Of a stretch of 64,000 nt of DNA, positions 6,848 to 64,000 are shown in pieces. Source of the stretch: Pseudovibrio axinellae (GTDB lineage Bacteria; Pseudomonadota; Alphaproteobacteria; Rhizobiales; Stappiaceae); NCBI RefSeq assembly GCF_900110875.1, contig NZ_FOFM01000001.1, forward strand, positions 930,001 to 994,000, given 5' to 3'. How positions within the stretch are numbered: position 1 is the stretch's first letter; each line of letters begins with the position of its first letter. Both the position numbers and the translations under genes were made by a program. The notes under the pieces were generated by a model. The model saw only the letters and a list, made by a program, of their open reading frames with translations, did no database searches and was not told the origin of the DNA.

Positions 6848-6873
6848 TTTATTTCCGGATCTGCTGAAAATAA

Positions 6874-6899
6874 AGGGTCGCACGAATGCGGCCCTTTTT
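6874..6899 (+). terminator. Rho-independent terminator of the cytochrome c gene
   Basis: Stem AGGGTCGC (6874-6881) pairs with GCGGCCCT (6888-6895), with one G-T pair and a 6-base loop, followed by a run of T. It lies 27 bases after the stop codon. Confidence 0.9.
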
Positions 6900-6917
6900 C
6901 ATTTATCCAGACATGCT

Positions 6918-7370: not shown

Positions 7371-7427
7371 TCCCCTGAAGAAGGGCTAGAGGATACAGCC
7401 CTCCTTGTATTTGGCAATGCGGTTTGA

Positions 7428-8084
7428 TCAGGCCAGTTGTGTGATGATTTCGTCTTCTGGCAGACGTGATTTTGGCAAGGCTGCATTGAAGTCATCTTCA
7501 TGACGGTAACCAAGCGCGATCAAAGCAACAGCGCGGTAGCCCTTTTCAATCAGGCCGAATTCTTCGTTCAGAGCCTGTGCATCCACACCTTCGATTGGCA
7601 CTGCATCAATGCCCAGCGCACCTGCGCCCAGCAGCACGGTTCCCATGTTCAGGTAGACCTGCTTTTCCATCCAGTGGTCTGCGTCTTTCAGCTCGTCGCG
7701 GTGGATACCAACGAACTTGGAACGCCCTGCTTTGACGGTTTCCTTGACTGCCGGATCTGTAAAGCGTTTGTCGTTTTCTTCTGCTTCTAAAATGCGTGTC
7801 AGATACTCATCCGAAATCTCAGTTTTAACGCAGAATACGATGACGTGAGAGGAGTTGAGAACCTTGGCGTTGTTGAAGGCAAACATGCCTTGCGTGCCTT
7901 TAGAGACGCGCTCGCGCCCACCTTGCGTATCTGCGATGATAAAGTGCCATGGCTGCGTATTCACACTGGACGGGCTGAAGCGCAGCAGGGATTTGATGTG
8001 GTCGAACTGCTCAGCCGAAACGCGCTTGGTCGGGTCAAACGCCTTTGTTGAGTAGCGGCTTAGTGCAACATCTTTCACGTTCAT
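7428..8084 (-). CDS. nfsB: Oxygen-insensitive NAD(P)H nitroreductase, NfsB family
   Basis: FMN flavoprotein that reduces nitroaromatics and quinones with two-electron transfer; in related enzymes dihydropteridine is also reduced. It is 218 residues against 217 in E. coli NfsB and aligns along its whole length: RYSTKAFDPTKR and SPSSVNTQPWHFI near the N-terminus, KQVYLNMGTVLLGAGALG and DAVPIEG in the centre, and LPKSRLPEDE at the end. GGAAAA precedes the ATG. It is followed by the GNAT gene and may be co-transcribed with it. Confidence 0.94.
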   Translation of the reverse strand: MNVKDVALSRYSTKAFDPTKRVSAEQFDHIKSLLRFSPSSVNTQPWHFIIADTQGGRERVSKGTQGMFAFNNAKVLNSSHVIVFCVKTEISDEYLTRILEAEENDKRFTDPAVKETVKAGRSKFVGIHRDELKDADHWMEKQVYLNMGTVLLGAGALGIDAVPIEGVDAQALNEEFGLIEKGYRAVALIALGYRHEDDFNAALPKSRLPEDEIITQLA

Positions 8085-8307
8085 TCTTATTTTCCGATTT
8101 ATTGTCTTTTGGAGATCTTAGCTGATAAATAACAATAAGTTTTTCTTAAACAAGTATGCAGGGCGCCAATTTTTCATGTGCCATATGCACTTTATGAGCA
8201 TGGCCCTCACTGCTGAAGGAGCATTGCGGTCTGTTTAAAATTATGGCACGCAGATAACATCGATTGAAATTTTGTGTTGCTCTGAGATTACAGGATTTCC
8301 AGTATTC

Positions 8308-9500: not shown

Positions 9501-10571
9501 ATGGGAAAGCTCAAGCCGGGCGTCATCTTTGGTGAAGACTATAAAACCCTGATTGAAGCATGCCGGACAGGCAAATATGCATTGCCTGCGGTAAACGTTG
9601 TTGGAACAGACTCCGTCAACGCAGTTCTTGAAGCAGCAGCTGCAAACAAAACAGATATTATCATTCAGCTTTCCAATGGTGGTGCTCAGTTCTATGCCGG
9701 TAAGGGCATCAAAGACGGCTTTCAGGCAAAAGTGCTTGGTGCCGTAGCGGCGGCACAGCATGTGCACCTGCTGGCAGAGCACTATGGTGTAGGCGTTGTG
9801 CTTCACACTGACCATGCGGACAAGAGCCTGATCCCATGGCTGGAAGAACTCATCAAGCACGGTGAAGAGTTTTACAAAGCACACGGCAAGCCTTTGTTCT
9901 CCTCTCACATGCTGGACCTTTCTGCAGAAGACATCGAGTTCAACTTGTCTGAAAGCGAACGCCTGCTGAAGATGATGGCTCCTCTTGAGATGAGCCTTGA
10001 GATCGAACTGGGCGTGACCGGTGGTGAAGAAGACGGTATCGGCTCTGATGAAGACATTGGCGCAGATAATCCTAAGCTTTACACCCAGCCAGAAGACGTT
10101 TTGCAGGCTTATGACCGCCTCAATCCGCTTGGCCACTTCTCCGTTGCAGCTTCGTTTGGTAACGTGCACGGCGTTTACAAACCGGGCAACGTAAAGCTTC
10201 GTCCAGAAATTTTGCGCGAAAGCCAGAAGCTCGTGAGCGAAACCCATAAGCTGGGTGAAAACCCGCTGGCGCTGGTGTTCCACGGTGGTTCCGGTTCTGA
10301 GAAATCCAAGATTGCAGAGAGCCTAAACTACGGTGTGTTCAAGATGAACATCGACACTGACACACAGTTCGCGTTTTCCGAGCGTGTTGGTGCCTATGTG
10401 CAAGCCAATGCGAACGCCTTCCAGTACCAGATCGACCCGGAAACCGGCGCTCCAACGAAGAAGGCTTACGACCCGCGCAAATGGCTGCGTGAAGGCGAGC
10501 TGGGCATTGTTGATCGCCTGAAGGAAGCTTGTGAAGACCTTGAGTGTATTGGCAAGAGCCTTTGCCAGTAA
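9501..10571 (+). CDS. fbaA: Class II fructose-bisphosphate aldolase, type A
   Basis: Zinc-dependent cytosolic aldolase that splits or makes fructose-1,6-bisphosphate. It aligns end to end with E. coli FbaA: KPGVIFGEDYK, LPAVNVVGTDSVNAVLE, QLSNGGAQFYAGKG, the metal-binding HTDHADK, LFSSHMLDLSAE, EIELGVTGGEEDG, SFGNVHGVYKPGN, VFHGGSGS and KMNIDTDTQ. The ATG at 9501 gives 356 residues, the family length, with GGGAG about 10 bases upstream. It is monocistronic with a strong terminator. It may also serve the amino-sugar route at the other end of the window, where no aldolase is encoded, but this is only inference. Confidence 0.96.
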   Translation: MGKLKPGVIFGEDYKTLIEACRTGKYALPAVNVVGTDSVNAVLEAAAANKTDIIIQLSNGGAQFYAGKGIKDGFQAKVLGAVAAAQHVHLLAEHYGVGVVLHTDHADKSLIPWLEELIKHGEEFYKAHGKPLFSSHMLDLSAEDIEFNLSESERLLKMMAPLEMSLEIELGVTGGEEDGIGSDEDIGADNPKLYTQPEDVLQAYDRLNPLGHFSVAASFGNVHGVYKPGNVKLRPEILRESQKLVSETHKLGENPLALVFHGGSGSEKSKIAESLNYGVFKMNIDTDTQFAFSERVGAYVQANANAFQYQIDPETGAPTKKAYDPRKWLREGELGIVDRLKEACEDLECIGKSLCQ

Positions 10572-51189: not shown

Positions 51190-52496
51190 GCCGCGCAAAG
51201 CCTTCATCCACCCACTTGCATCTGCCCAGATTTCACAGCCCCAAACAAGCCCGCGGTCTGATTGCCACCTGTGCAGTGGTCTTCTCGCTGATGTTTATCT
51301 GGGCAGCCATTGCACAGGTCGATGAAGTTACACGCGGAGAAGGGCGCATCATCCCTTCCCGACAAATGCAAATTGTGCAGGCTCCTGAACGGGGGATCGT
51401 CTCCGCGCTGTATTATTATGAAGGCGAGATCGTGGAACAGGGCGCTGTTTTGGTAAAACTGGACAATACTGGCTTTAGCACTCAGCTGGGAGAGCTGAAG
51501 CAGAAGAAATACGCCTTGCAAGCACGTTTGGCGCGCTTAACAGCTGAATCCACACAGGCCCGCATACAGCTGGACCAAACAGGTGTTCCGCCTGACATCT
51601 CGGTCTTTTTTGAGCGTGAGCTTGAAGTGTACGAAGCGCAGAAAAACCAACTGAGCGCCGAGGTTGCGGTGCTTAACAGCCAGTACGCCCAGAAGGAGCA
51701 AGCGCACAAACAACTGGAGGCAGAAGCAATTATGCTGTCTTCCAACCTTTCCATTGTATCGCGGGAGCTGGAAATCAATCAGAAACTGTTTGAACGCGGG
51801 GTCCTGCCAGAAATCGAGTTATTGCGCCTCAAACGTCAGTACACGACTCTCAACGGAGAGCGCCAAATGCTCTCTGCGTCCCTTGCCAGTGCGATCTCTG
51901 CCAAGAACGAGGCCATACAGCGCATTATCTCTACACAAACAGCCTTTACCTCAAAAGCCCAGTCTGATCTGGCTGCAACCAAGGCTGAACTTGCCGTGAT
52001 TGAAGAACGGCTGCGTGGTGCTGCTGATCGCGTTGACCGCAGTGCTCTGGTGGCACCGATGCGTGGTGTCATCAACAAACTCAGTGTCAGCACCATTGGG
52101 GCCGTCGTTCAAGCAGGCGAACCGCTCGTTGAAATTGTTCCTTTGGAGGACACATTACTGGTCTCAGCCCAAATCCAGCCTCAGCATGTTGCGTTTCTTC
52201 ACCCTGGCCAAAATGTAAGTGTGAAAGTGACGGCCTATGACTATTCCATTTACGGAGGACTGGAGGGCGTGCTTGAGCGCATAAGCCCTGACACACGTGA
52301 GGATGAGCGTGGCAAAGTGTTTTTCAAGGTGATTGTGAGAACAAAGCGCAACTATCTGGGGCCCGTGCACAACCCGCTTCCAATTACGCCGGGCATGACC
52401 GCAAGCATAGACATTTTGACAGGCAAAAAAAGCGTTCTTAGTTACATTGCCAAACCGCTTATCAAGGTCAAAGCAGAGGCCTTCAGGGAGCGATAG
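51186..52496 (+). CDS. HlyD/LapC-type periplasmic adaptor of type I secretion
   Basis: Membrane fusion protein of 436 residues that links the ABC exporter to an outer-membrane channel. One membrane helix lies at about 24-45 (GLIATCAVVFSLMFIWAAIAQ), followed by GEGRIIPSRQMQIVQAPERG, the start of the lipoyl-like domain. A long coiled coil spans about 95-295 with a turn near the middle. The C-terminal beta-barrel has APMRGVINKLSVSTIGAVV, GQNVSVKVTAYDYSIYGGL and the closing PLPITPGMTASIDILTGKKS, all typical of HlyD. The ATGA overlap with the ABC gene shows coupled translation. Confidence 0.93.
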   Translation: MSRAKPSSTHLHLPRFHSPKQARGLIATCAVVFSLMFIWAAIAQVDEVTRGEGRIIPSRQMQIVQAPERGIVSALYYYEGEIVEQGAVLVKLDNTGFSTQLGELKQKKYALQARLARLTAESTQARIQLDQTGVPPDISVFFERELEVYEAQKNQLSAEVAVLNSQYAQKEQAHKQLEAEAIMLSSNLSIVSRELEINQKLFERGVLPEIELLRLKRQYTTLNGERQMLSASLASAISAKNEAIQRIISTQTAFTSKAQSDLAATKAELAVIEERLRGAADRVDRSALVAPMRGVINKLSVSTIGAVVQAGEPLVEIVPLEDTLLVSAQIQPQHVAFLHPGQNVSVKVTAYDYSIYGGLEGVLERISPDTREDERGKVFFKVIVRTKRNYLGPVHNPLPITPGMTASIDILTGKKSVLSYIAKPLIKVKAEAFRER

Positions 52497-52535: not shown

Positions 52536-53687
52536 TTACGCCGAAAGGAACGAGACTGATTTGTAGTCATTTGCAATCAGCAAAACATTTGACAGATCAG
52601 CGCCTTGCAGTCTGGCGACTGGCTGCTCGAGCCCCATTAGTTTTGCTGGGTTGGACAGCGTCATGCGCAGCGCTTCTTCAGTGGGGCGCTCCAGCACGTT
52701 CACCACGTGGGCGAGCGAGTCAAACATGGTTGTATGTGCACCAGCCAAGGACCCTTCGCTGTTGACCAACTTACCTGCATCTAAGCGGATATTCTGGCCG
52801 TAAAGATCAAAGGCGTCTGGTCCGCCGACAGTTGGCATTGCATCACTGATAATAATCATATGATCTTTCACCGGACGCGCGCGCATGGCCAGCAACAACA
52901 TATCATCGGCCACATGATGCCCATCAACAATGAGTGAGCAATAAGCGGTGGAGTTGATACCCGTTCCGACGGCACCCGGTTCGCGGTTAGCCATCTGAGA
53001 CATGCCATTGAACAAATGCGTGAAAAGGGTCGCCCCCTCTTCCAATGCCGGTTTGATCTGCGCTGCGCCCACATCTGTGTGACCGATGGACACAACAACA
53101 CCCATCTCAACCAGTTTGGCAATATCTCCCTTGGCAACACCCTCTGGAGCTACGGTCATCAGCACGGGAATGTTTCGGTCACGCAGGTCGCGGACCAGCT
53201 TAAGGCTGTTTGGATTAAGCTGGCAGACCCAACTGGCTTCGTGGGTGCCTTTACGCGCAACGCTGATGTGGGGGCCTTCAATGTGAATGCCCTGAATGCC
53301 CTGCTTGCCAAAGGCGTCTTTCATCGCTTCAGCAGCCTCCTCCAGAACATGAGGAGCATCTGTGATCACGGTTGGCAACAAAGCTGTTGTGCCATACTGG
53401 CGGTGCGCAGCAGCAATGGTAAAGAGACCTTCTGGCGTCGGTGAGGTGTTGTATAAAACACCACCACCGCCATTGATCTGAATATCGAAGAAACCGGGAG
53501 TGAGAAGGCCGGGCACCTTATGGACCAATGCACCGTGCGGAACGGCATCCGTCGCAGACAAGGCGGTAACTTTTCCATTAACACAACAAACAGCAGTGCC
53601 GTGCATCAGGTTTTGGCCATCAAATACCTGATCTGGATACAGCCATGTATCACTGTTATCTGTCCGGTTGCCCAAAGCAGTGCTCAT
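52536..53687 (-). CDS. nagA: N-acetylhexosamine-6-phosphate deacetylase (NagA/AgaA)
   Basis: Metal-dependent amidohydrolase (383 residues) that deacetylates GlcNAc-6-P or GalNAc-6-P. Landmarks: GFFDIQINGGGGV, GIHIEGPHIS with the metal-binding Glu, SIGHTDVGA, THLFNGMS, VDGHHVADD and IIISDAMPTVG with the catalytic Asp. It is the last gene of the amino-sugar operon and overlaps agaZ by 4 bases. The neighbours agaS and agaZ point to GalNAc-6-P as substrate, the NagB-II-like gene to GlcNAc-6-P; the enzyme may serve both. Confidence 0.93.
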   Translation of the reverse strand: MSTALGNRTDNSDTWLYPDQVFDGQNLMHGTAVCCVNGKVTALSATDAVPHGALVHKVPGLLTPGFFDIQINGGGGVLYNTSPTPEGLFTIAAAHRQYGTTALLPTVITDAPHVLEEAAEAMKDAFGKQGIQGIHIEGPHISVARKGTHEASWVCQLNPNSLKLVRDLRDRNIPVLMTVAPEGVAKGDIAKLVEMGVVVSIGHTDVGAAQIKPALEEGATLFTHLFNGMSQMANREPGAVGTGINSTAYCSLIVDGHHVADDMLLLAMRARPVKDHMIIISDAMPTVGGPDAFDLYGQNIRLDAGKLVNSEGSLAGAHTTMFDSLAHVVNVLERPTEEALRMTLSNPAKLMGLEQPVARLQGADLSNVLLIANDYKSVSFLSA

Positions 53688-54994
53688 AGAGTCTCCTCAA
53701 GCTGAGGTGTCTCAACTCTTTCAAAGTAATAAGGGTCTAATGCCTGCTGAATTTGGGCAAGCACAAGCGCCTTCTCTATGCCAAAACCATGCCGCTGCAA
53801 AGCCCGTGCACGTTTTACAACACAAGATGCAAACAGTTGAAGTAACAGTGTTTCTGGAATGGTGTGGGTTGCAAGGGAGGCAAAGACTGCCTTCAAGGCA
53901 GACTGTACCCTCTCTTGTGGCCAGTAATAGCGCACCCGGTCTGAATAGCTGAAGTGCCTGAGCAGGCGCAATTCCTGATCCGTACCGTGATAATGCGAGC
54001 GCCAGTATGTAGGCTGCGCCAGCATTTCAGCTTCCAGCACAGCTGGAATTTTTGGAGCTGTTCGTCGGTCTTCTTCGAGCCAGTCCAGCAGCTGGTCCAA
54101 TGCGTAGATTGCTTGTCTGTAGGCAAAGGTCAGGGCCGGGCCTACTTTTTGGATCGCAAAGCCCATGGAGGCCAAACGTGGATAAGCGCTGTCGTGCTGG
54201 TAGTCCGTGCTGTGTGCTTCAAAAACCACATTCTTGTAAGGGTCCAGTATCGCACGCAATGCTTTGCCCTCACCAGTGGGAAGGTGGTCGACGTGGAAGG
54301 GGGAGAACTCAACACCGGGCTGCACGACCAGCGCACAAATGCGCCCTTTTGCGGCTTCAAGGCCCAGCTCATCAAACTTTTGATAATGCATAAGTAAGGT
54401 CGCCCGCGCACGTGCGGGAGGTGTGGGTTCAATCGCGTGTGCGTCCTCCTTGCGAGCGCCTCCCGGGGGAGGCACTTCAGTGCCAATGATGTAACTGAGC
54501 TTGTCTGGATCGGGAGCATAGGCCTCGCAAACAGCGGCAAGCTCTGCTGCGCGGCTTGCGCTGGTCTCATCATCCACCTGTGCCTCTTCGCCAACACAGC
54601 CTTGCGAGCAGTCCAGATGGATTTTGGTAAACCCGGCTTCCACGTATGCCCTCATCAGATCTCTGGATTTTGCCATAGCCTTATCAGCAGGCATTGTCCG
54701 CCATGCTTGTGGACCTAGATGATCGCCTCCCAAAAGCAGAGAGGTATCGGGCAAGCCGGCCTCAGCACAAATGCCTTTGACATACCCCACAAAGTCATCG
54801 GGTTTCATTCCGGTGTAGCCACCATCCTGGTTGACCTGATTGCTGGTTGCTTCCAACAGCAGAACCTGCCCCTTTTCTGCAGCCAGAAGTGCAGAGGCAA
54901 GGATCACACCTGGTTGCGCAGAGCAAATGGACGGCATGGCGATGCCTGTTCCCGCCCGGTTCTCTGCAATCAGCTCCAGCAATGGATTGCTCAT
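53684..54994 (-). CDS. agaZ: AgaZ/KbaZ/GatZ-family protein
   Basis: A 436-residue member of the GatZ/KbaZ family. Recognisable stretches: AMPSICSAQPGVILASALL, LLLEATSNQVNQDGGYTGM, LLLGGDHLGPQAW, KIHLDCSQGC, VFEAHSTDYQ, KVGPALTFAYRQAIYAL and FSYSDRVRYYW. In enterobacteria it is the chaperone-like subunit of tagatose-1,6-bisphosphate aldolase. In Shewanella and other bacteria comparative genomics reassigned it as tagatose-6-phosphate kinase. No catalytic subunit KbaY/GatY is here, which favours the kinase role. It overlaps both neighbours by 4 bases. Confidence 0.88.
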   Translation of the reverse strand: MSNPLLELIAENRAGTGIAMPSICSAQPGVILASALLAAEKGQVLLLEATSNQVNQDGGYTGMKPDDFVGYVKGICAEAGLPDTSLLLGGDHLGPQAWRTMPADKAMAKSRDLMRAYVEAGFTKIHLDCSQGCVGEEAQVDDETSASRAAELAAVCEAYAPDPDKLSYIIGTEVPPPGGARKEDAHAIEPTPPARARATLLMHYQKFDELGLEAAKGRICALVVQPGVEFSPFHVDHLPTGEGKALRAILDPYKNVVFEAHSTDYQHDSAYPRLASMGFAIQKVGPALTFAYRQAIYALDQLLDWLEEDRRTAPKIPAVLEAEMLAQPTYWRSHYHGTDQELRLLRHFSYSDRVRYYWPQERVQSALKAVFASLATHTIPETLLLQLFASCVVKRARALQRHGFGIEKALVLAQIQQALDPYYFERVETPQLEETL

Positions 54995-55926
54995 AGGCCC
55001 TCTCCCAGATGCTCGCAGTCCTGCAAGGCAGCCAGTGCTGCACCGCGTGTGCCGCTGCTGTCCCCAAACTGGGCAACGCAGATCATAGGCGGTTCTGTGT
55101 GATTGAGCAGTTTGCCCGGCAATGCCTGCGCAATGGTTCGCTCAATATTCGGTATTTTAGAAAGGCCTCCGCCAAGGACAATGCAATCGGGGTCCAAACT
55201 GCATTGCAGGGCAGCAACCAGCTCGGCGGCGAGCTGAGACCACAGGCGCATGACCTCCTGCATTGGCACGTCGCCAGCAGCGGCAGCTTTTGTAATTGTT
55301 TGAGCATCTACGGCCTTGCCGGTGACATGGTTGGCCAAGCGGCTGATGCCCGGACCGGCAAGGTAGGTTTCAAAACACCCTGTGCGTCCACACCCGCACT
55401 TCAGCGGCTCCAGCCCCAGCTTTGTCATCGCAGCGTATGGAATGCCAAGGTGACCGTATTCACCCGCCGCCCCGTTCAGGCCGGAAACAGTATGACCATT
55501 GGAACAACACCCGCCCCCAACCCCAGTACCAAGGATCAAGCCGAAGACGGTGTCGTAACTTCGCCCTGCACCCAGCACAGCTTCAGATAAAGCAAAGCAG
55601 TTGCAGTCGTTTTCAAAGGTAACCGCCCTGCCCAACTTGCTGATGATATCGTCATGCAGTGTGCGACCTGATGCTGGGAGGTTGGCAGTTAGAAATTTGC
55701 CTGTCCGCTTGGAGTAGAAACCGGGAATTCCAACACCAATGGGCAGGTCTTTGTTACCGGAGACCTCTTCCAGCCAATGGATCATTTCACAAAGAGCATC
55801 CACCAAACCCTCATAGGTCTCTTTTGGCGTGGCGATACGTTTGCTCTCAACCACGGCCCAGGCTTCATCAAAGGCCGTTGCTTCGATTTTGGTTCCGCCC
55901 AGATCAATTCCGCCCGCTGTTACCAT
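54991..55926 (-). CDS. ROK family amino-sugar kinase
   Basis: Sugar kinase of 311 residues. The ATP loop is GGIDLGGTKIEATAF, the central segment FENDCNCFALSEA holds the base Asp, then LGTGVGGGC, GLNGAAGEYGHLGI and the zinc motif CGCGRTGCFETYLAGPG, all ROK signatures. It probably phosphorylates the imported N-acetylhexosamine (NagK or AgaK role). I chose the ATG at 55926, one base after the agaS stop; the ATG at 55968 would lie inside agaS. It overlaps agaZ by 4 bases. Confidence 0.92.
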   Translation of the reverse strand: MVTAGGIDLGGTKIEATAFDEAWAVVESKRIATPKETYEGLVDALCEMIHWLEEVSGNKDLPIGVGIPGFYSKRTGKFLTANLPASGRTLHDDIISKLGRAVTFENDCNCFALSEAVLGAGRSYDTVFGLILGTGVGGGCCSNGHTVSGLNGAAGEYGHLGIPYAAMTKLGLEPLKCGCGRTGCFETYLAGPGISRLANHVTGKAVDAQTITKAAAAGDVPMQEVMRLWSQLAAELVAALQCSLDPDCIVLGGGLSKIPNIERTIAQALPGKLLNHTEPPMICVAQFGDSSGTRGAALAALQDCEHLGEGL

Positions 55927-55927
55927 G

Positions 55928-57034
55928 TCAGACCTCTTCCAGCGCATAGAGTTTGACACCGCTGACAACGCGCGTCAGTGTGCCCTGCCCTTCAAACGGA
56001 TTGTCGACATTCAACCCAAGTTCCTCGGCCCAAAAAATACCCAGCCACTGAGCCACCAGAACGTTTAGAACCGAGGTCCAGCCATCATCAAGCAGGCATG
56101 GAATGCGTATATCCGCGTCATTGGTGTTGCCGATGGTCAGAAGGGTGTCCTTCCCAAACTGAGCTTTGATTTCAGCTGCCAGATCCAGATCGTACTTTCG
56201 AGAATGAGGGTTGTTGGAAATAAACAGGAAGACTTTGGTTCCCGCCGTCACAAAAGACTTGGGGCCGTGGCGAAAGCCCAGCGAGCTTTCCCAGATTGCA
56301 GGAATTTGCCCCGCTGCCAGCTCCATCACCTTCAACGCACTTTCACGCGCCACAAACATAAGTGGTCCTGAACCGACAAATACGGCGCGTTGCGGTGCTG
56401 TCAGTTGCTGCGCCAGATGGTCACTTGCTGCAATCACCATCTCTGCTGCCTGGCCCAGCTCCTCCATATTTTTCGCAATTTTTTCGGGGTTTTCCTGCCC
56501 AAACACGCAGAGCGCGGTCAGTACCATGGTTGTGAAACTGGAGGTCATGGCAAAGCCGCTATCGTGGCATTGCTCCGGTAAGATGATCGTCTTTTGAGCC
56601 GCTCCAGATGCTGGTTTCCGGGTCGCCAGAGCGCTATCTTTATTGCAGGTGATGTTCAGGCGCGGGGCATTTTGGAACACAGCATCGAGCAGGTCCAAGG
56701 TGCCGATACTTTCCGTTGAATTTCCACTACGCCCGAAGGAAACAACGAGAGGGACGACGCCTTTGCGCTGAAAGGCCTGCGGTGCACTGACAAGGTCTGT
56801 TGAGGGAACAGAGCGCAATGGCAGGACCGAAGTGGCGTCCAACGCGCGGCTGACCACATCGCCAATATAGGCTGAGGTTCCAGCTCCACAGAACCAAACT
56901 TGTGTTGCACCAGATGCCATAACCCACTCACGCAACTCCTCAATGGAGTTTGAGAGGTGATTGCCCCAGTTGGTCCAGATTTCCCGCTGCGCCTGAATTT
57001 CACGCGTAGTGGCCCATTTGGTCAGATCGACCAT
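55928..57034 (-). CDS. agaS: AgaS: galactosamine-6-phosphate deaminase/isomerase (SIS domain)
   Basis: Two-SIS-domain protein of 368 residues. It follows E. coli AgaS throughout: WFCGAGTSAYIGDVVSRAL, VPSTDLVSAPQAF, VVSFGRSGNSTESIGTLDL, NITCNKDSALA, CHDSGFAMTSSFTTMVL, SALKVMELAAGQIPA and GFRHGPKSFV. AgaS converts GalN-6-P to tagatose-6-P with loss of ammonia. AAGGGAA precedes the ATG. It sits between a second, unrelated-type SIS gene and the ROK kinase. Its presence is the best evidence that the cluster handles galactosamine sugars. Confidence 0.93.
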   Translation of the reverse strand: MVDLTKWATTREIQAQREIWTNWGNHLSNSIEELREWVMASGATQVWFCGAGTSAYIGDVVSRALDATSVLPLRSVPSTDLVSAPQAFQRKGVVPLVVSFGRSGNSTESIGTLDLLDAVFQNAPRLNITCNKDSALATRKPASGAAQKTIILPEQCHDSGFAMTSSFTTMVLTALCVFGQENPEKIAKNMEELGQAAEMVIAASDHLAQQLTAPQRAVFVGSGPLMFVARESALKVMELAAGQIPAIWESSLGFRHGPKSFVTAGTKVFLFISNNPHSRKYDLDLAAEIKAQFGKDTLLTIGNTNDADIRIPCLLDDGWTSVLNVLVAQWLGIFWAEELGLNVDNPFEGQGTLTRVVSGVKLYALEEV

Positions 57035-57054
57035 TAAGACATTCCCTTGTATAT

Positions 57055-58068
57055 TTAGATAGTTACAGTCGTTTTAGAAAGAGTTTCAGGCTGGTCGGGG
57101 TCTAACCCCATTTGAAGCGCAATTTCTAAAATAACCGGATACATAATTCTTAGCAGCATAGCGGCACTTGCAGCTGGCGTTAGTCCCTGTGCCCCGATAT
57201 CACCCGGAGTAAGGCGGAACACATTTGCCCCCACCGCTTTAAAACAGGTTTGTGCAACGCTCAGGCTTTCCAGACTCACATCTTCGCCCGTATCCAGAAT
57301 GATTACGGTCAGCGGTTTGGTTGCCAGTTGCAATGGACCATGAAGCACCTCTGCGGCTGAATAGGCCTCTGCATGGATTACTGCGGTCTCTTTCAGCTTG
57401 AGCGCCACCTCATGAGCAGCCCCCAAACCACATCCGCGCCCGATGACATAAACATTCTGGGTTTCCTTCAAGGCTTCAACCAGAAGATCGCCTTGCGTGG
57501 ATTTTGCATTGGCGCTTGCAAGCATTGCTTTTGCAGCCGTTTCGCATTCCTGCGCATACTCTGGTTTGAGAGCGGCTAGCAAAGCCATACTAGTTGCAAC
57601 GGTGCACAGGACCGTTTTGGTCGCCGGAACCGCTTGTTCAATTCCGGCATTGATGTTGATGCAAGCATCCGTTTCGTCAGCCAATGGGGAGTTGGCTGTA
57701 TTGGTGATGGCAATTGTTTTTCCGCCCCCTGCCCTGAACCCGATTGCGGCACGGATTAGATCCTTGCTTGCGCCAGATTGAGAGACAATAAGGGCTGCTA
57801 CATTCCCCAGCTGCAACCCACTGCCCAAACTGAAAACGGAGGGCGGCAGCGTTGTGACTGGCTTATTTAACTGCGCCATAAACTCATAGGAAATCAGATT
57901 GGCGGCGGCATCAGAGCTGCCACGGGCGATGGTGTAAAACGCATCGACGGCAGACAGGTCTACAGCCTGTGCAACTTCTACAAGTGTTTGTCGCAAGCCC
58001 GCCGCAAAAGCAGGGATTGCCTGATCAATTTCTGCGCGCATCAACGCGCCCGGGTGTTTTGTTGTCAT
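57055..58068 (-). CDS. SIS-domain aminosugar-6-phosphate deaminase (NagB-II/GlmS isomerase-like)
   Basis: A 337-residue protein with two SIS domains like the isomerase half of GlmS. Signatures: FYTIARGSSDAAANLISYEF, LIVSQSGASKDLI, TKTVLCTVATSMALL, VIGRGCGLGAAHEVALKLKETAVIHAEAYSAAEVLHGPL (residues about 215-255). It has no glutaminase domain, so it should deaminate GlcN-6-P to fructose-6-P, as NagB-II of Shewanella does. Agmenellin-type or fructoselysine deglycase relatives cannot be excluded. It overlaps the upstream Gfo/Idh gene by 4 bases. Confidence 0.88.
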   Translation of the reverse strand: MTTKHPGALMRAEIDQAIPAFAAGLRQTLVEVAQAVDLSAVDAFYTIARGSSDAAANLISYEFMAQLNKPVTTLPPSVFSLGSGLQLGNVAALIVSQSGASKDLIRAAIGFRAGGGKTIAITNTANSPLADETDACININAGIEQAVPATKTVLCTVATSMALLAALKPEYAQECETAAKAMLASANAKSTQGDLLVEALKETQNVYVIGRGCGLGAAHEVALKLKETAVIHAEAYSAAEVLHGPLQLATKPLTVIILDTGEDVSLESLSVAQTCFKAVGANVFRLTPGDIGAQGLTPAASAAMLLRIMYPVILEIALQMGLDPDQPETLSKTTVTI

Positions 58069-59246
58069 ACCGCTTCCGCCGTGTTTGTTGCCGCTGTACC
58101 TCCACGCAGATTGAAACTGTCAAACTTCTCCCAGTATGACGTGAGGTCGACAACTTGTTTGCTCATGCGCGCCTGATCCAGCGCAAGCGCTGCGACGCCT
58201 GCTTCCAATGCATCGACAACAGAAACTGGCAGGCTTTTCAATTCACCACGCAAATAAGCACAAAGGTCCTGGCACATCATATCATCTGCGCCGTAGTGAG
58301 CGCCGGGACGGTCTATAGATTTGGTGTAGTCCTCATCTACCACTGTGTTGCGACTATGAGCCTGAGTTACTTTTAGGTAGCCGCGTACGTAGTCCCCTTC
58401 AGCCATGCCTTTGGTTCCCATCACGCAAAACCGGCGCTGCTCATCGGGCACATTCATGTTGGTATGGAACGCCATGGACGCGCCGCTCTCGTATTCCAAG
58501 ATTGCCGTCTGGTGGTCGACAATGTCACCATCGGATAAGAACGGGTCCTGCGTTGCCTCCCAGATGGATTCTTTTTGGTGATACACCTGCGTATCGACAT
58601 CTCTTGCTGGAGCATTGTCTGGTATAAAGGATTTTCGGCCTCCAAAGCTGGCGACGCGGATCGGGCGAGAGCCAGTTACCATGTTGTAGATATCTAGATC
58701 GTGACAACATTTTTCCAGCATAAAACCGCCCGAATACTTGGTGTACCGACGCCAGTCGCGCATGAAGAACGCCCCGTGATAGGGCGCGATATGCTCATTG
58801 GCCTCTATGGAAACAACCTCTCCGATCAGCCCAGCAGCTTGTGCAGCTCGTAAATCTCTTGCATGTTGTGCGTAGCGTAGCACCAAGCCGACTAATACCT
58901 GATCTGCGCCATGCTTGGAGAGCAGCTGCGCCAGTTCCATGGTTTCATCCATGGAGATAACGACAGGCTTTTCTGCAAAGATGCGAATGCCAGCATTCAA
59001 GCCAGTGCGGATGTGATCCAGATGCAAGTGGTTAGGAGAGCCGACAAACAGCAGATCAGCTTCCTCATTTGCCAGCATGTCCTCAAGAGTGTCATAGGCT
59101 TTGAGAGCCTCGTGATTTTTATGAGTGGTCTTCTGGTAGGGGGTTGGGTCTACATAGGCCACCACTTCCGCCTCCGGCATATGAGCCTGCAGACGTTCTA
59201 AAACACTGACAGCACGCAATCCTAAACCAACGGTGACGATCCGCAT
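58065..59246 (-). CDS. Gfo/Idh/MocA family NAD(P)-dependent protein of unknown substrate
   Basis: A 393-residue protein with an N-terminal Rossmann fold (IVTVGLGLRAVSVLERL; LLFVGSPNHLHLDHI; FAEKPV with the catalytic Lys of the family) and an alpha/beta C-terminal domain (GGFMLEKCCHDLDIYN, in which the His/Asp pair is the usual catalytic element). Members oxidise sugars, reduce ketosugars, or act as NAD-dependent glycosidases (GH109 alpha-N-acetylgalactosaminidase). GGAGGAATGCG precedes the ATG. It lies between the ATPase and the SIS genes, so it should act on the imported sugar, before or after phosphorylation. Confidence 0.85.
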   Translation of the reverse strand: MRIVTVGLGLRAVSVLERLQAHMPEAEVVAYVDPTPYQKTTHKNHEALKAYDTLEDMLANEEADLLFVGSPNHLHLDHIRTGLNAGIRIFAEKPVVISMDETMELAQLLSKHGADQVLVGLVLRYAQHARDLRAAQAAGLIGEVVSIEANEHIAPYHGAFFMRDWRRYTKYSGGFMLEKCCHDLDIYNMVTGSRPIRVASFGGRKSFIPDNAPARDVDTQVYHQKESIWEATQDPFLSDGDIVDHQTAILEYESGASMAFHTNMNVPDEQRRFCVMGTKGMAEGDYVRGYLKVTQAHSRNTVVDEDYTKSIDRPGAHYGADDMMCQDLCAYLRGELKSLPVSVVDALEAGVAALALDQARMSKQVVDLTSYWEKFDSFNLRGGTAATNTAEAV

Positions 59247-59256
59247 CGCATTCCTC

Positions 59257-60357
59257 CTAGGCCAGTTCCAGCACAGTCAAACGCTTTTGTGCTTCACCCT
59301 TGCTGTTAAAGACGTAGGCATCCTCCGGCTTTACACTCAGATTAATCGTGGAGTTTTCCTTTATATCTGCCAAGCCCGGCAAACTTGCGCAAAACGTGGT
59401 GTTGCTTTGCACTTTTCCGTAGGCAATGGAGGATGCACCAAGGCGCTCCAATACGTCCACTTCCATGCTTATTGGCCCGCTCTCATCCAGCTGCACATGC
59501 TCAGGACGGATGCCAACATCGACATTGTCGCCAGCCATAAGGCCCGTGGTCTCAATGGCGATGCTCATGGTGCCACCATCTTTGAGCTGCACATGAAGCA
59601 TGTGTGCCTCAACGCGGCTGACGATGGCGGGGATGAAGTTCATTTTGGGATGGCCAATAAAACCGGCGACGAATTTGTTGCGTGGGTGCAAGTATAGGTC
59701 CATCGGGGTGCCGCACTGCTCAACAACACCGCCGTTCAGCACCACAATGCGATCAGCCATGGTCATGGCTTCTACCTGATCGTGTGTCACGTAGATCATA
59801 GTGGTGTCGAGGCTTCTGTGTAGTTTTGAAAGCTCAACGCGCATGTCACCGCGCAAGGCCGCGTCCAGATTAGACAGCGGCTCATCAAACAGGAACACCT
59901 TTGGGTTGCGCACAATGGAGCGACCAATGGCGACACGCTGGCGCTGCCCACCTGAAAGCTGGCCAGGTTTGAACTGCAGGCGCTCTTCCAGCTGCAAGAT
60001 GGATGCGGCTTTGTTCACGCGTTCCTTAATTTCGGCTTCCGGGCGTTTTGCGACACGCAGCGGGAAGGCAATGTTTTCATAGACAGTAAGGTGCGGATAA
60101 AGTGCATAGCTCTGAAATACCATGGAAATTCCACGGTCGATTGGATGGGCATACGAGACATCTTCGTCATCAATCAGAATGGAGCCTTGTGTTGCCTCTT
60201 CCAGACCAGCCACGATCCGCAACAATGTTGTCTTTCCGCAGCCAGAGGGGCCAACAAATACAACAAATTCCTTATCCTCAATTGCCAGATTGACGTCTTT
60301 GAGGACAGTTGTTGGTCCAAATGATTTTACAATATTTTTGAGCTGAAGCGTGGCCAT
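59257..60357 (-). CDS. Sugar ABC transporter ATP-binding protein (UgpC/MsmK type)
   Basis: ATPase of 366 residues energising the sugar importer. Walker A is GPSGCGKTT, the signature LSGGQRQR, Walker B VFLFDEPLSNLDA with the H-loop in YVTHDQVEAMT. The C-terminal regulatory region (about 240-366) has the TOBE/OB features FIGHPKMNFIPA and VGIRPEHV of the MalK/UgpC subfamily. It begins 58 bases after the binding-protein gene; a hairpin lies between. The ATG has a weak ribosome site. Confidence 0.95.
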   Translation of the reverse strand: MATLQLKNIVKSFGPTTVLKDVNLAIEDKEFVVFVGPSGCGKTTLLRIVAGLEEATQGSILIDDEDVSYAHPIDRGISMVFQSYALYPHLTVYENIAFPLRVAKRPEAEIKERVNKAASILQLEERLQFKPGQLSGGQRQRVAIGRSIVRNPKVFLFDEPLSNLDAALRGDMRVELSKLHRSLDTTMIYVTHDQVEAMTMADRIVVLNGGVVEQCGTPMDLYLHPRNKFVAGFIGHPKMNFIPAIVSRVEAHMLHVQLKDGGTMSIAIETTGLMAGDNVDVGIRPEHVQLDESGPISMEVDVLERLGASSIAYGKVQSNTTFCASLPGLADIKENSTINLSVKPEDAYVFNSKGEAQKRLTVLELA

Positions 60358-60383
60358 ATCTATCTTCTTGTACTGATGAACAG

Positions 60384-60407
60384 GGAGAGGCTGTCACCAG
60401 CCTCTCC
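60384..60407 (-). repeat. Inter-cistronic hairpin after the sugar-binding-protein gene
   Basis: GGAGAGGCTG (60384-60393) pairs perfectly with CAGCCTCTCC (60398-60407), 4-base loop. No T-run follows on the minus strand, so it likely protects the binding-protein mRNA 3' end rather than ending transcription. Confidence 0.75.
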
Positions 60408-60415
60408 GGGTTTCT

Positions 60416-61636
60416 CTATTTGAACTCTTCAAGTTCTTCAGCAGCGATAGCCACCAGGTTTTCAGCCGTATCGTCATTCAGGAGGATGCCCTGAATCATC
60501 GTGTTCATGACAGACTGCATTGCTTTGTAATCAACAAAGAGCGGCTCAGGACCACCGTTTGGAATGGATTCGATAAAGACCGCCCAATATGGGTCATCCA
60601 TGTAGTATGGCTTTTCAACACCGAGCTCTTCGTATTTCAGGATTGGTGTCAGGCCCCAACCTTCAGGCTTATCAAGAGAGTACTGGCTCTCACCAGTGGT
60701 CATCATGCGCGCAAACTCCATCGCCAGATCTTCATGACCGGAGCCTTTGAAGACTGCGAGGGAGTCGGTGATGAGGAGTGTACCACTTACGCCGCTTGGT
60801 CCAGCAGGAACTGGCGCAACTTTCGTATTGATGCCTTCCTTGTGCTGACCACGACCCCAAGGTCCGTCAATGTACATGGCAACCTTGTTGTCGTTGAACA
60901 GGTCGCGCACCTGTGTACGTTCAAACGCGGTTGGGCCATCCTGAGAAACATCTACCAGTTTGCCGTAGAATTTAAGCGTTTCCAGTGTATTTTTGGAATC
61001 CAGCGTAATCTCGTTGGTGGACGGATCAATCACCTGACCACCGTTGGAATACAGGTAGATCAGGAACTGGTGCATGGTGCTGTCGAAGTCTTTGCCAGTG
61101 AGGCCAACGCCAGCCTTACCGGTTTTGTCCTTGATGATCTTCGCAGCCGCGTACATGTCATCCCATGTTTTTGGTGCTTCACACGCAAGTCCCGCTTCTT
61201 CAAAAACATCGCAGTTCAAGAACAAAGCTTTGGTTGAAAACGCACGCGGGAAGCCCCAGAACTTTTCACGGTAGCTTACGGTGTTCAAAACACCCGGCTG
61301 ATAGGCTTTTTGCTGTTCTTCAGAGATCTTAGCATCAACGATCAGGTTGTTGTCAGCCAACTGCTTGAGCGTACGTGAACCCATATAGGACACGGAAGGC
61401 GGGCTACCCGTAGATGCTAATTTCAGCGATTTGTCCTGACACGTGCCCCATGGAAGGCTTTCCATGTTTACCGTTGTACCGGGATTAGCGGCCTCGAATG
61501 CGGCAACAACTTTTCGATCTGCATCCAGACCGTCGTCCCCACAGCGGATGAAATGAAGTTCTGCTGATTGTGCAGAAGATGCGGTAATCAGTGCAGCTGC
61601 TCCAGCAGCCATTGCAAATAGCAGTTTAGTTCTCAT
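60416..61636 (-). CDS. Sugar ABC transporter substrate-binding protein (family 1)
   Basis: Periplasmic receptor of 406 residues. Signal peptide residues 1-28 (MRTKLLFAMAAGAAALITAS, then AQSA). The mature protein shows the family 1 layout: VVAAFEAANPGTTVNMESLPW, YMGSRTLKQLADNNLIVDA, FWGFPRAFSTKALFLNCDVF, KVAMYIDGPWG and the C-terminal GWGLTPILKYEEL. GGGAGG precedes the ATG. It is third in the operon after two permeases. The ligand is presumably an N-acetylhexosamine or a glycoside of one. Confidence 0.93.
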   Translation of the reverse strand: MRTKLLFAMAAGAAALITASSAQSAELHFIRCGDDGLDADRKVVAAFEAANPGTTVNMESLPWGTCQDKSLKLASTGSPPSVSYMGSRTLKQLADNNLIVDAKISEEQQKAYQPGVLNTVSYREKFWGFPRAFSTKALFLNCDVFEEAGLACEAPKTWDDMYAAAKIIKDKTGKAGVGLTGKDFDSTMHQFLIYLYSNGGQVIDPSTNEITLDSKNTLETLKFYGKLVDVSQDGPTAFERTQVRDLFNDNKVAMYIDGPWGRGQHKEGINTKVAPVPAGPSGVSGTLLITDSLAVFKGSGHEDLAMEFARMMTTGESQYSLDKPEGWGLTPILKYEELGVEKPYYMDDPYWAVFIESIPNGGPEPLFVDYKAMQSVMNTMIQGILLNDDTAENLVAIAAEELEEFK

Positions 61637-61672
61637 GGTTTATCCTCCCAGTAACCAATGATATTTCAAAAA

Positions 61673-62515
61673 TCACTCCTTGATTGCACCAGCTGTAAGG
61701 CCAGCGACCAGGTAGCGTTGCAAAAACAAGAAAATGACAAGTACGGGCAGTATTCCAACGATGCTTGCTGCCATCATCTCATTCCATTTGACTGACTGAT
61801 AGCCAATAAACTCAAGGATGCCCGCTGGCAGAGGCATGTAGTCTTTGACGGAGTTGAATGTGATTGCAAACAGGAACTGTTGTGCGTAGGCAGACAGGAA
61901 CACAGCCACCCCGACCACAATCAGGCCCGGCACGGCTAATGGCAGCACGACGCGGCGCAGGGTGTAAAGGCGGCTTGCGCCATCCATAAACGCTGCTTCT
62001 TCCAGTTCACGCGGGATCTTTTCCAGATACGATTTAAGCAGCCAGATCCCCATAGGGACCAGAAAAGCTGCCCCTGGAACAATCATTGCAAAATATGTAT
62101 TCAGCAGGCCGTAATTTCTCAGCAGCTTGTAGAGCGGAATAAGCAGGACCGCACCGGAAAACATGTTTACAGCCAAAAAGATGCCGAGGCTGATGGACTT
62201 GCCTTTAAAATCAAACCGGGCATAGGCGTAGGCTGCGGGAATGATGAAAAGCAAGGCCAGTGCTGTGACCGACAGGGAGATAAACATGCTGTTGGCGATG
62301 TAGCGCGGCAGCATGGGAACAGTCTCCCACATCTGGGCATAGGCCCTGAACGAAAAGTCATCTGACCAGAACTGATAGGGCGAGCGGAACAGGTGCTCCA
62401 AAGGCCTCAAAGAGGTCATGAACATCTCAAAGAAAGGCAGCAGAATGAAACCAAGGAAGATTGCAACGCAGATGTAGAGAAACACCTTATGTGGCAGTGA
62501 GTAGCGATCCATCAT
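61673..62515 (-). CDS. Sugar ABC transporter permease (MalG type)
   Basis: Inner-membrane permease of about 280 residues, six helices. The first helix is at about 10-32, and the EAA loop is at EEAAFMDGASRLYTLRRVVLPLAVPG, the docking site for the ATPase. The C-terminus LQRYLVAGLTAGAIKE is the signature of MalG-type subunits. I chose the ATG at 62515, immediately after the stop of the previous permease (TAAGATG); extending to 62599 would overlap it and add a tail with no parallel. Confidence 0.93.
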   Translation of the reverse strand: MMDRYSLPHKVFLYICVAIFLGFILLPFFEMFMTSLRPLEHLFRSPYQFWSDDFSFRAYAQMWETVPMLPRYIANSMFISLSVTALALLFIIPAAYAYARFDFKGKSISLGIFLAVNMFSGAVLLIPLYKLLRNYGLLNTYFAMIVPGAAFLVPMGIWLLKSYLEKIPRELEEAAFMDGASRLYTLRRVVLPLAVPGLIVVGVAVFLSAYAQQFLFAITFNSVKDYMPLPAGILEFIGYQSVKWNEMMAASIVGILPVLVIFLFLQRYLVAGLTAGAIKE

Positions 62516-62516
62516 C

Positions 62517-63482
62517 TTAAACTGCCCCAAAGCGTTTTTTGATCTGGTGGAGTGCAAACAGGTAGACCAGTGAGAATACCGAGAGCAGAGACACAACAAT
62601 CACGGCACGGGCAGCACCCTGCCCGAACTTGAAGTTTGCAATTGCCATCTTGTAGGTGTCGATGATCAGCGTTGTGGTTGCGCTGCGCGGCCCACCCTCG
62701 GTCAGAATCCAGATAATCTCGAAGGAATTGAACGTCCAGATGATCGAAAGGATCGACATGGTGATGATCACTGGCAGGATTTGCGGAATAGTGATGCGGC
62801 GGAAACGATACCAGCGCGATGCGCCATCCACGTAAGCTGCCTCATACAAATCTCGCGGCACGCCCTGCATCGCGGCCAGCATGAAGATGGTGACCATTGG
62901 CAGGCCAACCCATACATCCGTTATAACAGCAGAGTAGAATGCGCTGTTTTTGTAGGCGAGGAACTCAAAGGGTCCATCCAGAATGCCTACATATTGCAGC
63001 ATACCAGAAATTATGCCGAAGTGGCCGTTATAGAGCCAGAGCCAGCCAAAACAACCAATCGCAATGGGAACAATCCATGGCGGCATCACCAGCATGCGGA
63101 AGATTGCGCGCCCTGGGATCGCTGCATTGAGCAAGGTCGCGCCGATTAGACCAAAAATGATCTTGAAAGAGACGGACAGGAACATCCAGTAGAACGTTCT
63201 GGAAACTGTCTGGCTGAACTTGCGAGAGCTGAGCAGTTTCTCGTAGTTGGCTGTGCCGATGTAGCTTTCACCGCCGATGTTGGCGTTGGTAAAGGACAAG
63301 CGGATTGTTTCTACCAGCGGCCATGCAACGATCATCATCAGATATAAAGCTGCTGGAGCAATCAACATCCATGCGAAGAATGCTTGTGAGCGTAACAGCC
63401 CTTTGAGCATCCCTTGTTTTTGTTTTGTGGAACCACCGCTCGCGCCTTCATACGGCAGCAGCTCACCTGACGCAGTCGTCAT
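62517..63482 (-). CDS. Sugar ABC transporter permease (MalF/UgpA type)
   Basis: Inner-membrane permease of 321 residues, the first gene of the operon. Six helices; AFFAWMLIAPAALYLMMIVAWP starts the membrane part and YEAAYVDGASRWYRFRRITIPQI is the EAA loop. The N-terminal 40 residues are hydrophilic. I chose the ATG at 63482 with GGGGAG upstream; an ATG at 63542 adds an unlikely tail. It faces the gntR-type gene across a 308-base region with a predicted promoter and operator repeats. Confidence 0.93.
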   Translation of the reverse strand: MTTASGELLPYEGASGGSTKQKQGMLKGLLRSQAFFAWMLIAPAALYLMMIVAWPLVETIRLSFTNANIGGESYIGTANYEKLLSSRKFSQTVSRTFYWMFLSVSFKIIFGLIGATLLNAAIPGRAIFRMLVMPPWIVPIAIGCFGWLWLYNGHFGIISGMLQYVGILDGPFEFLAYKNSAFYSAVITDVWVGLPMVTIFMLAAMQGVPRDLYEAAYVDGASRWYRFRRITIPQILPVIITMSILSIIWTFNSFEIIWILTEGGPRSATTTLIIDTYKMAIANFKFGQGAARAVIVVSLLSVFSLVYLFALHQIKKRFGAV

Positions 63483-63588
63483 GCGCTCTCCCCAATTCCT
63501 GCAAAGTACAGGTCCCCACCTCGCACTTACGCTTTCATGCACTCACCCCCCGGATTAATGCATGACGTAATTTAACGAGCTCCCAAAA

Positions 63589-63616
63589 ATAATACCAAAA
63601 CAATTCCATTTGTCCA
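63589..63616 (-). promoter_or_regulatory. Predicted promoter of the amino-sugar operon
   Basis: On the minus strand TGGACA (63611-63616) and TATTAT (63589-63594) are 16 bases apart, each five of six to the sigma-70 consensus. A GGTAT half-site (63592-63596, minus strand) overlaps the -10 element, the same pentamer as in the nearby repeats. Confidence 0.55.
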
Positions 63617-63709
63617 CATACTAACCACTGTCTGTGAAATATTTCTAATTTCAGCGCTCAAGCCGTGCAAATTTGGGTTTATTCCTAGTAAAACAGATGT
63701 GCGCTTTAC

Positions 63710-63755
63710 ATTGGTATTCAATAGGTATGTTTTTGCATTGGTATCAAAAAGGTAT
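63710..63755. promoter_or_regulatory. Tandem 19-bp operator-like direct repeats (GGTAT-N6-GGTAT)
   Basis: Two copies of ATTGGTAT-N2-AA-N-AGGTAT at 63710-63728 and 63737-63755, 27 bases apart. GGTAT starts at 63713, 63724, 63740 and 63751, so within each copy the pentamers are 11 bases apart, one helical turn. They lie between the sugar operon and the gntR-type gene and are the likely target of that regulator. Confidence 0.7.
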
Positions 63756-63790
63756 TATAGATATCTGGAATTCGGATAAAGATAAGCAGA

Positions 63791-64000
63791 ATGAGCGCAC
63801 AAGACGACAATCAGACAGACCTGTTCTCAGCAACATCTTGGCAACAGCGCAGTGGTGGACCTCGGTATTTACAGCTTTACCGCCACCTTGAAGCTGCCAT
63901 TAAAGATGGCCGTCTGGCAGCTGCAACAACGCTGCCTGCCGAGCGGGAGCTGGCAACGCTTACCGGTTTGTCACGCGTGACTGTGCGAAAAGCGATCTCT
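63791..64000 (+). CDS. GntR-family (HutC/NagR-type) regulator, truncated by window end
   Basis: The first 70 residues of a transcription regulator; the frame stays open to the window edge. After a hydrophilic start, residues 26-70 form the GntR winged helix: YLQLYRHLEAAIKDGRL, LPAERELATLTGLSRVTVRKAIS. The LPAERELA and SRVTVRKA pieces are typical of HutC-type members, which sense amino sugar phosphates in NagR. It is divergent from the amino-sugar operon, so it most likely controls it. The effector domain is outside the window. Confidence 0.9.
   Translation, partial: MSAQDDNQTDLFSATSWQQRSGGPRYLQLYRHLEAAIKDGRLAAATTLPAERELATLTGLSRVTVRKAIS

Follow-up and report, generated by a model that had tools for sequence, protein, structure and literature searches.

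Gene organisation of the locus

We analysed a 64,000-nucleotide stretch of the Pseudovibrio axinellae genome (contig NZ_FOFM01000001.1, positions 930,001 to 994,000; G000:C53:930001-994000), referred to here as the window, and all positions are given in its own numbering unless otherwise stated. The subject of this study is a cluster of ten open reading frames (ORFs) near one end of the window, all on the minus strand and spanning 52536-63542, or 52536-63482 if the likelier first start is used. In order, they encode two permeases, a binding protein and an ATPase of an ATP-binding cassette (ABC) transporter, a Gfo/Idh/MocA protein, a NagB-II-like SIS protein, an AgaS-like SIS protein, a ROK kinase, AgaZ and a NagA-like amidohydrolase. 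These are the ten families named in an original prediction made from the sequence alone; every ORF is present and the best matches in Pfam and NCBIfam concur, with several of the proteins lying below NCBIfam curated cut-offs despite their best match being to the named family.

Permease 1 (62517..63482; MalF/UgpA-like, PF00528) lies in an ORF that opens at GTG 63542, with a likelier start, judged from the sequence, at ATG 63482. The ORF of permease 2 (61673..62515; MalG-like, PF00528) opens at TTG 62599, with ATG 62515 similarly the likelier start. The sugar-binding protein (60416..61636; PF01547/PF13416) has an apparent N-terminal signal sequence, and the solved chains closest to it are various sugar-binding proteins, uninformative as to the ligand. 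The MalK/UgpC-like ATPase (59257..60357; PF00005) matches NF008653 with 454.8 bits, above the cut-off of 432.

The operon is clearly tightly packed; the overlaps at many junctions described in the original prediction were somewhat overstated. By ORF coordinates a 4-base overlap is found at three of the nine junctions (Gfo/NagB-II, ROK/AgaZ and AgaZ/NagA) and four are gaps of 10, 20, 36 and 58 bases. Apparent overlaps of 41 and 83 bases arise because the ORFs open at early alternative starts, and the likelier starts, ATG 55926 (ROK) and ATG 62515 (permease 2), are each 1 base past the preceding stop.

Conservation of the operon

A scan of named genomes, using eight aligned AgaZ proteins as the query, gave at least 484 confirmed candidates, the best 80 of which are the named loci considered here. 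Neighbouring genes were called in them by tblastn (E 1e-8), and 56 of the loci have full flanks. By title the 80 are mostly alphaproteobacterial, two being labelled Proteobacteria only and one Holophagaceae, and the nearest AgaZ relatives among them are from Pseudovibrio (75-80%). Forty of the 80 have all ten genes in exactly this order (33 of these 40 being among the 56 with full flanks), and the arrangement is therefore more than chance. Gene content, order and conservation, all directly observed, are those of a real, conserved operon. The AgaS-ROK-AgaZ-NagA genes are consecutive in 59 of the 80, a Gfo/Idh/MocA match is present in 52, a GH20 match in 43, and AgaS accompanied by a match to NagB-II or NagB in 53. 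The pairing of two deaminases is thus common, not universal. At the Pseudovibrio japonicus locus (L116) the NagB-II bait has no match in the operon, where the Gfo/Idh/MocA and AgaS genes are 20 bases apart, and the genome has a NagB-II-like gene (347 bits) at another place. A CutC-like gene is found downstream of NagA or Gfo/Idh/MocA in 20 of the 80 loci (L150, L151, L152, L183 and others), and CutC may therefore take part in the use of amino sugars.

Within the same order, PF08013, the Pfam family of AgaZ, was found in 45 of 297 genomes, that of the window included, and in none of the 11 other same-family genomes among those listed; a further 232 genomes without a match are unlisted in this survey. 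Neighbourhoods were compared at 48 of the 53 PF08013 places together with three plasmid loci, giving 51 stretches, some shortened by contig ends. The five places left out were the window's own, two on contigs of less than 4.1 kb and two partial matches.

AgaZ has the predicted fold and the active-site residues of a metal-dependent aldolase or epimerase

AgaZ (53684..54994), a predicted D-tagatose-6-phosphate 4-epimerase, matches PF08013 over its full length with 488.8 bits (cut-off 26.7) and is the only PF08013 match found in the genome. Seven active-site residues have been named for GatZ, with proposed roles for H88, E171 and H257 as metal ligands and D87 as base, alongside K279, E44 and C20 (PMC11907403). 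All seven are present in the window's AgaZ. They are conserved throughout an alignment of 54 proteins (54 of 54) and throughout a second one made up of the 80 named loci and the window (81 of 81). An AlphaFold model of AgaZ (predicted local distance difference test score, pLDDT, 88.2) has its best fold matches in 2fiq and 3txv, with template modelling (TM) scores to the query of 0.82-0.84. In the top 50 fold matches the first five solved chains belong to PF08013, and the titles of the remaining 45 are those of aldolases of the fructose/tagatose/sulfofructose type (one titled as an ALF-ACNA model) plus one tagatose 4-epimerase. No kinase fold appears in these 50; the word persists in the PDB titles of 2FIQ and 3TXV, as 'putative' or 'probable tagatose 6-phosphate kinase'.

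The original prediction had taken the absence of KbaY as support for AgaZ being the tagatose-6-phosphate (tagatose-6-P) kinase. This is not borne out, both the predicted fold and the residues, which are read directly from the model and the alignments, being of the aldolase/epimerase type. The lack of an aldolase counts just as much against a kinase, because the product of a kinase would still need an aldolase. On these grounds of fold, residues and logic we rejected a kinase role for AgaZ.

Wichelecki and colleagues reportedly described, in 2015, a tagatose-6-P 4-epimerase of PF08013 from Agrobacterium. In E. coli, GatZ and KbaZ turn fructose-6-phosphate (fructose-6-P) into tagatose-6-P in vivo, acting as C4 epimerases, and fbaA, kbaY and gatY failed to restore production (PMC11907403). 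The same article refers to a fructose-6-P 4-epimerase in Caldilinea and to a C4 epimerase in Sinorhizobium. The opening of another abstract states that FbaA catalyses the 4-epimerisation of phosphate sugars (PMC5434028), which makes FbaA a weak alternative epimerase. Searches under 'tagatose-6-phosphate epimerase', or PF08013 with epimerase, found no paper under those terms.

The window's AgaZ shares with the E. coli PF08013 epimerases the Pfam family, the active-site residues and the predicted fold (PMC11907403), and differs from them in its position in a tree of 54 proteins. There the amino-sugar AgaZ proteins, encoded among amino-sugar genes, form one clade (9 rows, support 100/100) apart from E. 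coli GatZ and KbaZ. One row of the clade (L085) lacks neighbouring amino-sugar genes, and the window's own row is on a long branch.

No aldolase partner is linked to AgaZ

As the original prediction had stated, no KbaY or GatY is encoded in the operon. A GatY/KbaY gene elsewhere in the genome was also ruled out: the only two class II aldolases found are both of the FbaA type (class IIA). One of these lies within the window, outside the operon (9540..10568, plus strand), and matches TIGR01520 with 445.8 bits (cut-off 347.7); it went unmentioned in the original prediction. The second is 78% identical to it. On TIGR01858, the tagatose-bisphosphate aldolase model, both score 75-85 bits (75.1 for the window's FbaA) against a cut-off of 443.55.

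TIGR01858 exceeded its cut-off in none of the 30 whole genomes searched, the window's included; among 14 control genomes E. coli alone passes. Weaker class II aldolase matches were present in 25 of the 30. The strongest is a GatY/KbaY-like aldolase of 290.7 bits, below 443.55, at G299:C9:145567-146409 (L194), in the genome that carries the Pseudovibrio denitrificans locus L115; it is on a different contig from the NagB-II gene of that operon. In the neighbourhoods, a direct observation of linkage, no GatY/KbaY bait match (E 1e-10) was found in any of the 51 alphaproteobacterial PF08013 stretches, both E. coli loci being positive as controls, and none was found in 79 of the 80 named loci. The remaining locus, L151, has a KbaY-like match of 33% identity about 1.9 kb past NagA. 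This class II aldolase-like ORF, on the opposite strand and beside another Gfo/Idh/MocA fragment, was not taken as a partner of AgaZ.

The window's genome has no match to the PF00365 phosphofructokinase family and nine PfkB-family matches. Classification covered the five distinct, better PfkB matches; of the others, one is a 99% copy of a classified one and three are the weakest. Among those classified, the best on TIGR03168, the LacC/FruK-type (1-phosphofructokinase) model, scores 100.5 bits against a cut-off of 216.4, and the same protein passes the ribokinase cut-off. Two DeoC-family matches are DeoC and a DhnA/LsrF-type protein below its cut-offs. Because of these outcomes for PfkB, PF00365, DeoC and class II aldolases, AgaZ is the sole obvious exit encoded nearby for tagatose-6-P, if tagatose-6-P is made.

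Two PfkB-family genes of 99% identity (L109 8613-9518 and L111 7414-8322) lie on separate contigs, and one of them is the immediate neighbour of the second FbaA gene. The PfkB protein next to this FbaA (C68) matches the ribokinase model alone, and weakly (75.9 bits, cut-off 299.65, with matches listed to E 1e-20), and the 14-kb stretch around its 99% copy has no FbaA bait match. A tagatose-6-P kinase/aldolase pair formed by PfkB and the second FbaA is unproven either way.

Two SIS proteins, a predicted kinase and a predicted deacetylase

The NagB-II-like protein (57055..58068), a predicted glucosamine-6-phosphate (GlcN-6-P) deaminase, has NF046059 as its best NCBIfam model, with 186.7 bits against a cut-off of 430. 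GlmS models come next at 130-134 bits, and TIGR02815 gives 25.0. In the PDB it matches the GlcN-6-P deaminase 8eol with E 1.1e-37, the top chain being 7kqa, whose name is uninformative. The AgaS-like protein (55928..57034), a predicted galactosamine-6-phosphate (GalN-6-P) deaminase, shows the reverse preference, with 274.7 bits on TIGR02815, its best model (cut-off 529.2), and 23.0 on NF046059. Its nearest PDB chains (3odp, 3c3j and 3i0z) are each labelled as a putative tagatose-6-phosphate ketose/aldose isomerase. Lys/Glu and His-Gly-Pro positions are kept in the second SIS half of 77 AgaS-like and 48 NagB-II-like sequences. Judged by sequence, the two are members of different subfamilies, each preferring its own model; we infer their substrates, because both lie below the curated cut-offs.

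The operon's is the only stand-alone NagB-II-like match in the window's genome, the other match being GlmS, and there is no PF01182 match in that genome. Each of 12 genomes searched has, besides AgaS, a stand-alone NagB-II-like or a PF01182 match; some PF01182 members can be 6-phosphogluconolactonases.

The ROK protein (54991..55926; PF00480; ORF opening at TTG 55968) is a predicted 6-kinase for N-acetylglucosamine and N-acetylgalactosamine (GlcNAc and GalNAc). It scores 271.2 bits on NF009835, an N-acetylglucosamine kinase model with a cut-off of 380, and matches the GlcNAc kinase 7p7i with E 5.2e-62. The last gene (52536..53687) encodes a NagA/AgaA-like amidohydrolase, a predicted N-acetylhexosamine-6-phosphate deacetylase, which scores 222.2 bits on TIGR00221, just under the cut-off of 225.65, and matches NagA (3egj) with E 1.5e-53. 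A phosphotransferase system (PTS) at about 1.05 Mb of C53 was considered as a GlcNAc system; by eye it resembles a glucose enzyme IIBC.

The Gfo/Idh/MocA protein

The Gfo/Idh/MocA protein (58065..59246; PF01408) is the least understood part of the operon. Its nearest solved structures are NAD-dependent glycosidases: 8qc2, a sulfoquinovosidase of family GH188, ranks first by phmmer, by profile search and, for a model with pLDDT 84.9, by Foldseek. By sequence and fold together 8qc2 and 8qc3 are its closest solved relatives, at about 21% identity, and no sulfosugar gene was recognised in the operon. A GG..(L/V)EKCCH..D stretch is common to 27 aligned family members and 8qc2/8qc3, whereas two inositol dehydrogenases in the same profile output have an aspartate and no CC there. 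Three points weigh against a glycosidase: RgNanOx, YjhC and inositol dehydrogenases follow with near-equal fold scores, YjhC having the same TM score of 0.74; the identity is about 21%; and for all 27 members the best NCBIfam model is inositol 2-dehydrogenase, far below its cut-off. The GH109 enzyme 2ixa stands far down the phmmer ranking. The glycosidase kinship suggested by sequence and fold is a lead, not membership.

Following this lead, it is conceivable, and rather doubtful, that the protein is an NAD-dependent, redox-type N-acetylhexosaminidase that would cleave imported alpha- or beta-glycosides of GlcNAc and GalNAc within the cytoplasm, beside a conventional GH20 enzyme, and feed an aldolase-free PF08013 pathway from GalNAc to fructose-6-P. 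If so, the NAD-dependent hexosaminidase and this pathway would give many Alphaproteobacteria a shared means of using glycans of mixed amino sugars.

Regulator, operator-like element and flanking genes

A GntR-UTRA regulator gene (PF00392 and PF07702) is divergent from the operon, with its 5' part in the window (63791..64000, plus strand); the full gene is at 3791-4558 of the stretch L004. A divergent GntR gene accompanies all 40 of the loci with the exact ten-gene order. Upstream of permease 1 is an operator-like element, TTGGTATTAT..., at 63580..63598 on the minus strand, recognised from its sequence and from 8-mer conservation, and additional TTGGTAT copies lie near the GntR start (63711-63717 and 63738-63744, plus strand). 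The 8-mer AATACCAA, on either strand, is present in 40 of the 44 intergenic regions between GntR and permease genes (the window's own and those of 43 relatives). In 100 sets of dinucleotide shuffles it occurs in 0.82 regions on average and 4 at most, and the commonest 8-mer of any shuffled set reaches 10. The signal may in part reflect relatedness, the intergenic regions being of shared descent. The extended consensus is approximately TTGGTATTATnTTGGTAGC, from which the window's own copy deviates in its second half. We infer that GntR binds the AATACCAA-containing element.

Past the GntR gene, L004 contains an AraC-type gene (5493-6314) and then, on the minus strand and about 2.3 kb beyond the window edge, a GH20 hexosaminidase gene (6321-8240), in whose protein no signal peptide is apparent by eye. 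Between the GntR and AraC genes, at L004 4600-4865 (64600-64865 in window numbering, outside the window), two minus-strand pieces are 90-93% identical to GH20 residues 546-639 and seem to be what is left of another GH20 copy. On the other side of the operon, adjoining it on the opposite strand (48970-52496), are genes for an ABC exporter with a C39-like domain and an HlyD-type adaptor, by their look a type I secretion pair.

Proposed pathway and alternatives

We consider it probable that the operon serves to import GlcNAc and GalNAc, as free sugars or in small glycosides, and to degrade them in the cytoplasm, and that the two routes meet at fructose-6-P through AgaZ acting as an epimerase. In this scheme, where each catalytic step, the transport substrate and the regulation are assigned from families, the ABC transporter would import the amino sugar, the ROK kinase would phosphorylate it at C6 and the NagA/AgaA-like protein would strip the acetyl group. 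The NagB-II-like protein would then convert GlcN-6-P to fructose-6-P and AgaS would convert GalN-6-P to tagatose-6-P, which AgaZ would turn into fructose-6-P by inverting C4 in a metal-dependent retro-aldol/aldol reaction. GntR would control the operon via TTGGTATTAT-type repeats. Because both arms meet at fructose-6-P, a tagatose-6-P kinase and a tagatose-bisphosphate aldolase would be unneeded. That GlcNAc and GalNAc might converge here had been part of the original prediction, and two SIS subfamilies could indeed bring two epimeric amino sugars together; its suggestion of chondroitin found no direct support, and the GH20 neighbour, possibly with the Gfo/Idh/MocA protein, suggests N-acetylhexosaminides more generally.

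One of the closest known systems, the E. coli aga/kba cluster, likewise contains genes for a PF08013 protein (KbaZ), AgaS and AgaA; in K-12 both agaA and agaW are pseudogenes. It differs in having PTS uptake and a linked KbaY aldolase, whereas the Pseudovibrio operon has ABC uptake, a ROK kinase and a second, NagB-II-like deaminase, and no KbaY. Plasmid clusters of Paracoccus seriniphilus and Paracoccus saliphilus share AgaS-ROK-AgaZ-NagA, the ABC transporter and Gfo/Idh/MocA, with GH20 in P. seriniphilus, but are organised as two divergent transcripts with CutC and have no NagB-II-like match. P. saliphilus further differs in its DeoR-type regulator and in a classical NagB, whose gene belongs to the same cluster and closes the divergent transporter transcript; the same gene set is therefore accompanied there by a GlcN-6-P deaminase from a different family. 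In its predicted function the transporter can be likened to nagTUVW of Ruegeria pomeroyi, another marine alphaproteobacterium, an experimentally verified GlcNAc ABC transporter and thus an example of N-acetylhexosamine ABC uptake (PMC10130141).

Several points weigh against the proposed pathway. The SIS, ROK, NagA-like and AgaZ proteins all fall below the NCBIfam curated cut-offs for their named functions, and the cargo of the transporter is predicted from families. As the seven residues are invariant in every PF08013 protein examined, they speak for catalysis at the level of the family, not for this substrate, and in GatZ they are a computed proposal awaiting mutagenesis; the epimerase activity of GatZ and KbaZ is itself called low and its mechanism a hypothesis (PMC11907403). 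Both proteins are also described as needed for full GatY/KbaY aldolase activity in E. coli (PMC10101011, PMC3668189). We saw no assay of any member of the amino-sugar AgaZ clade, and in 16 of the 56 loci with full flanks the GlcN-6-P deaminase baits find no match nearby.

The E. coli aldolase data are the starting point for one alternative, that AgaZ has no catalytic role and stabilises an aldolase encoded elsewhere, in a KbaYZ-type complex. Its best NCBIfam model, TIGR02810 (465 bits, below the cut-off of 568.8), bears a name of the non-catalytic-subunit type, and the weaker class II aldolase matches, of which only the two in the window's genome were classified, include the one in G299 away from the operon. 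Since no GatY/KbaY passed the cut-off in the genomes searched, or stood beside PF08013 in the 51 stretches and in 79 of the 80 loci, we regard this as quite improbable. Still harder to sustain is a tagatose-6-P kinase role with one or other of the FbaA-type aldolases cleaving the product, which we hold to be very improbable. A kinase role for AgaZ is mentioned as a proposal in a review citing Leyn 2012, the PDB titles echo it, and one of the two FbaA genes adjoins a PfkB gene; against it stand the metal-dependent aldolase/epimerase fold and residues of AgaZ, the C4 epimerase activity of its relatives (PMC11907403) and the low scores of both FbaA proteins on the tagatose-bisphosphate aldolase model. 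The operon could instead serve mainly one sugar, GlcNAc or GalNAc, or another amino sugar, with SIS substrates that are not physiologically separate. The P. japonicus operon, without a NagB-II bait match, would fit this, although that genome has its NagB-II-like match elsewhere; the opposed model preferences of the SIS proteins and the frequent pairing of AgaS with NagB-II or NagB make it unlikely.

Epimerase chemistry is already known in the PF08013 family, and two deaminases leading to fructose-6-P via an epimerase are likely a variant of known amino-sugar catabolism. The epimerase interpretation of AgaZ replaces the kinase-plus-aldolase view of this protein in an operon common to many Alphaproteobacteria. 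Should it hold, many genes now carrying the annotation 'D-tagatose-bisphosphate aldolase, class II, non-catalytic subunit' would encode catalysts themselves, the number touched being an expectation, and a bacterium without a PF00365 phosphofructokinase could use GalNAc by way of fructose-6-P.

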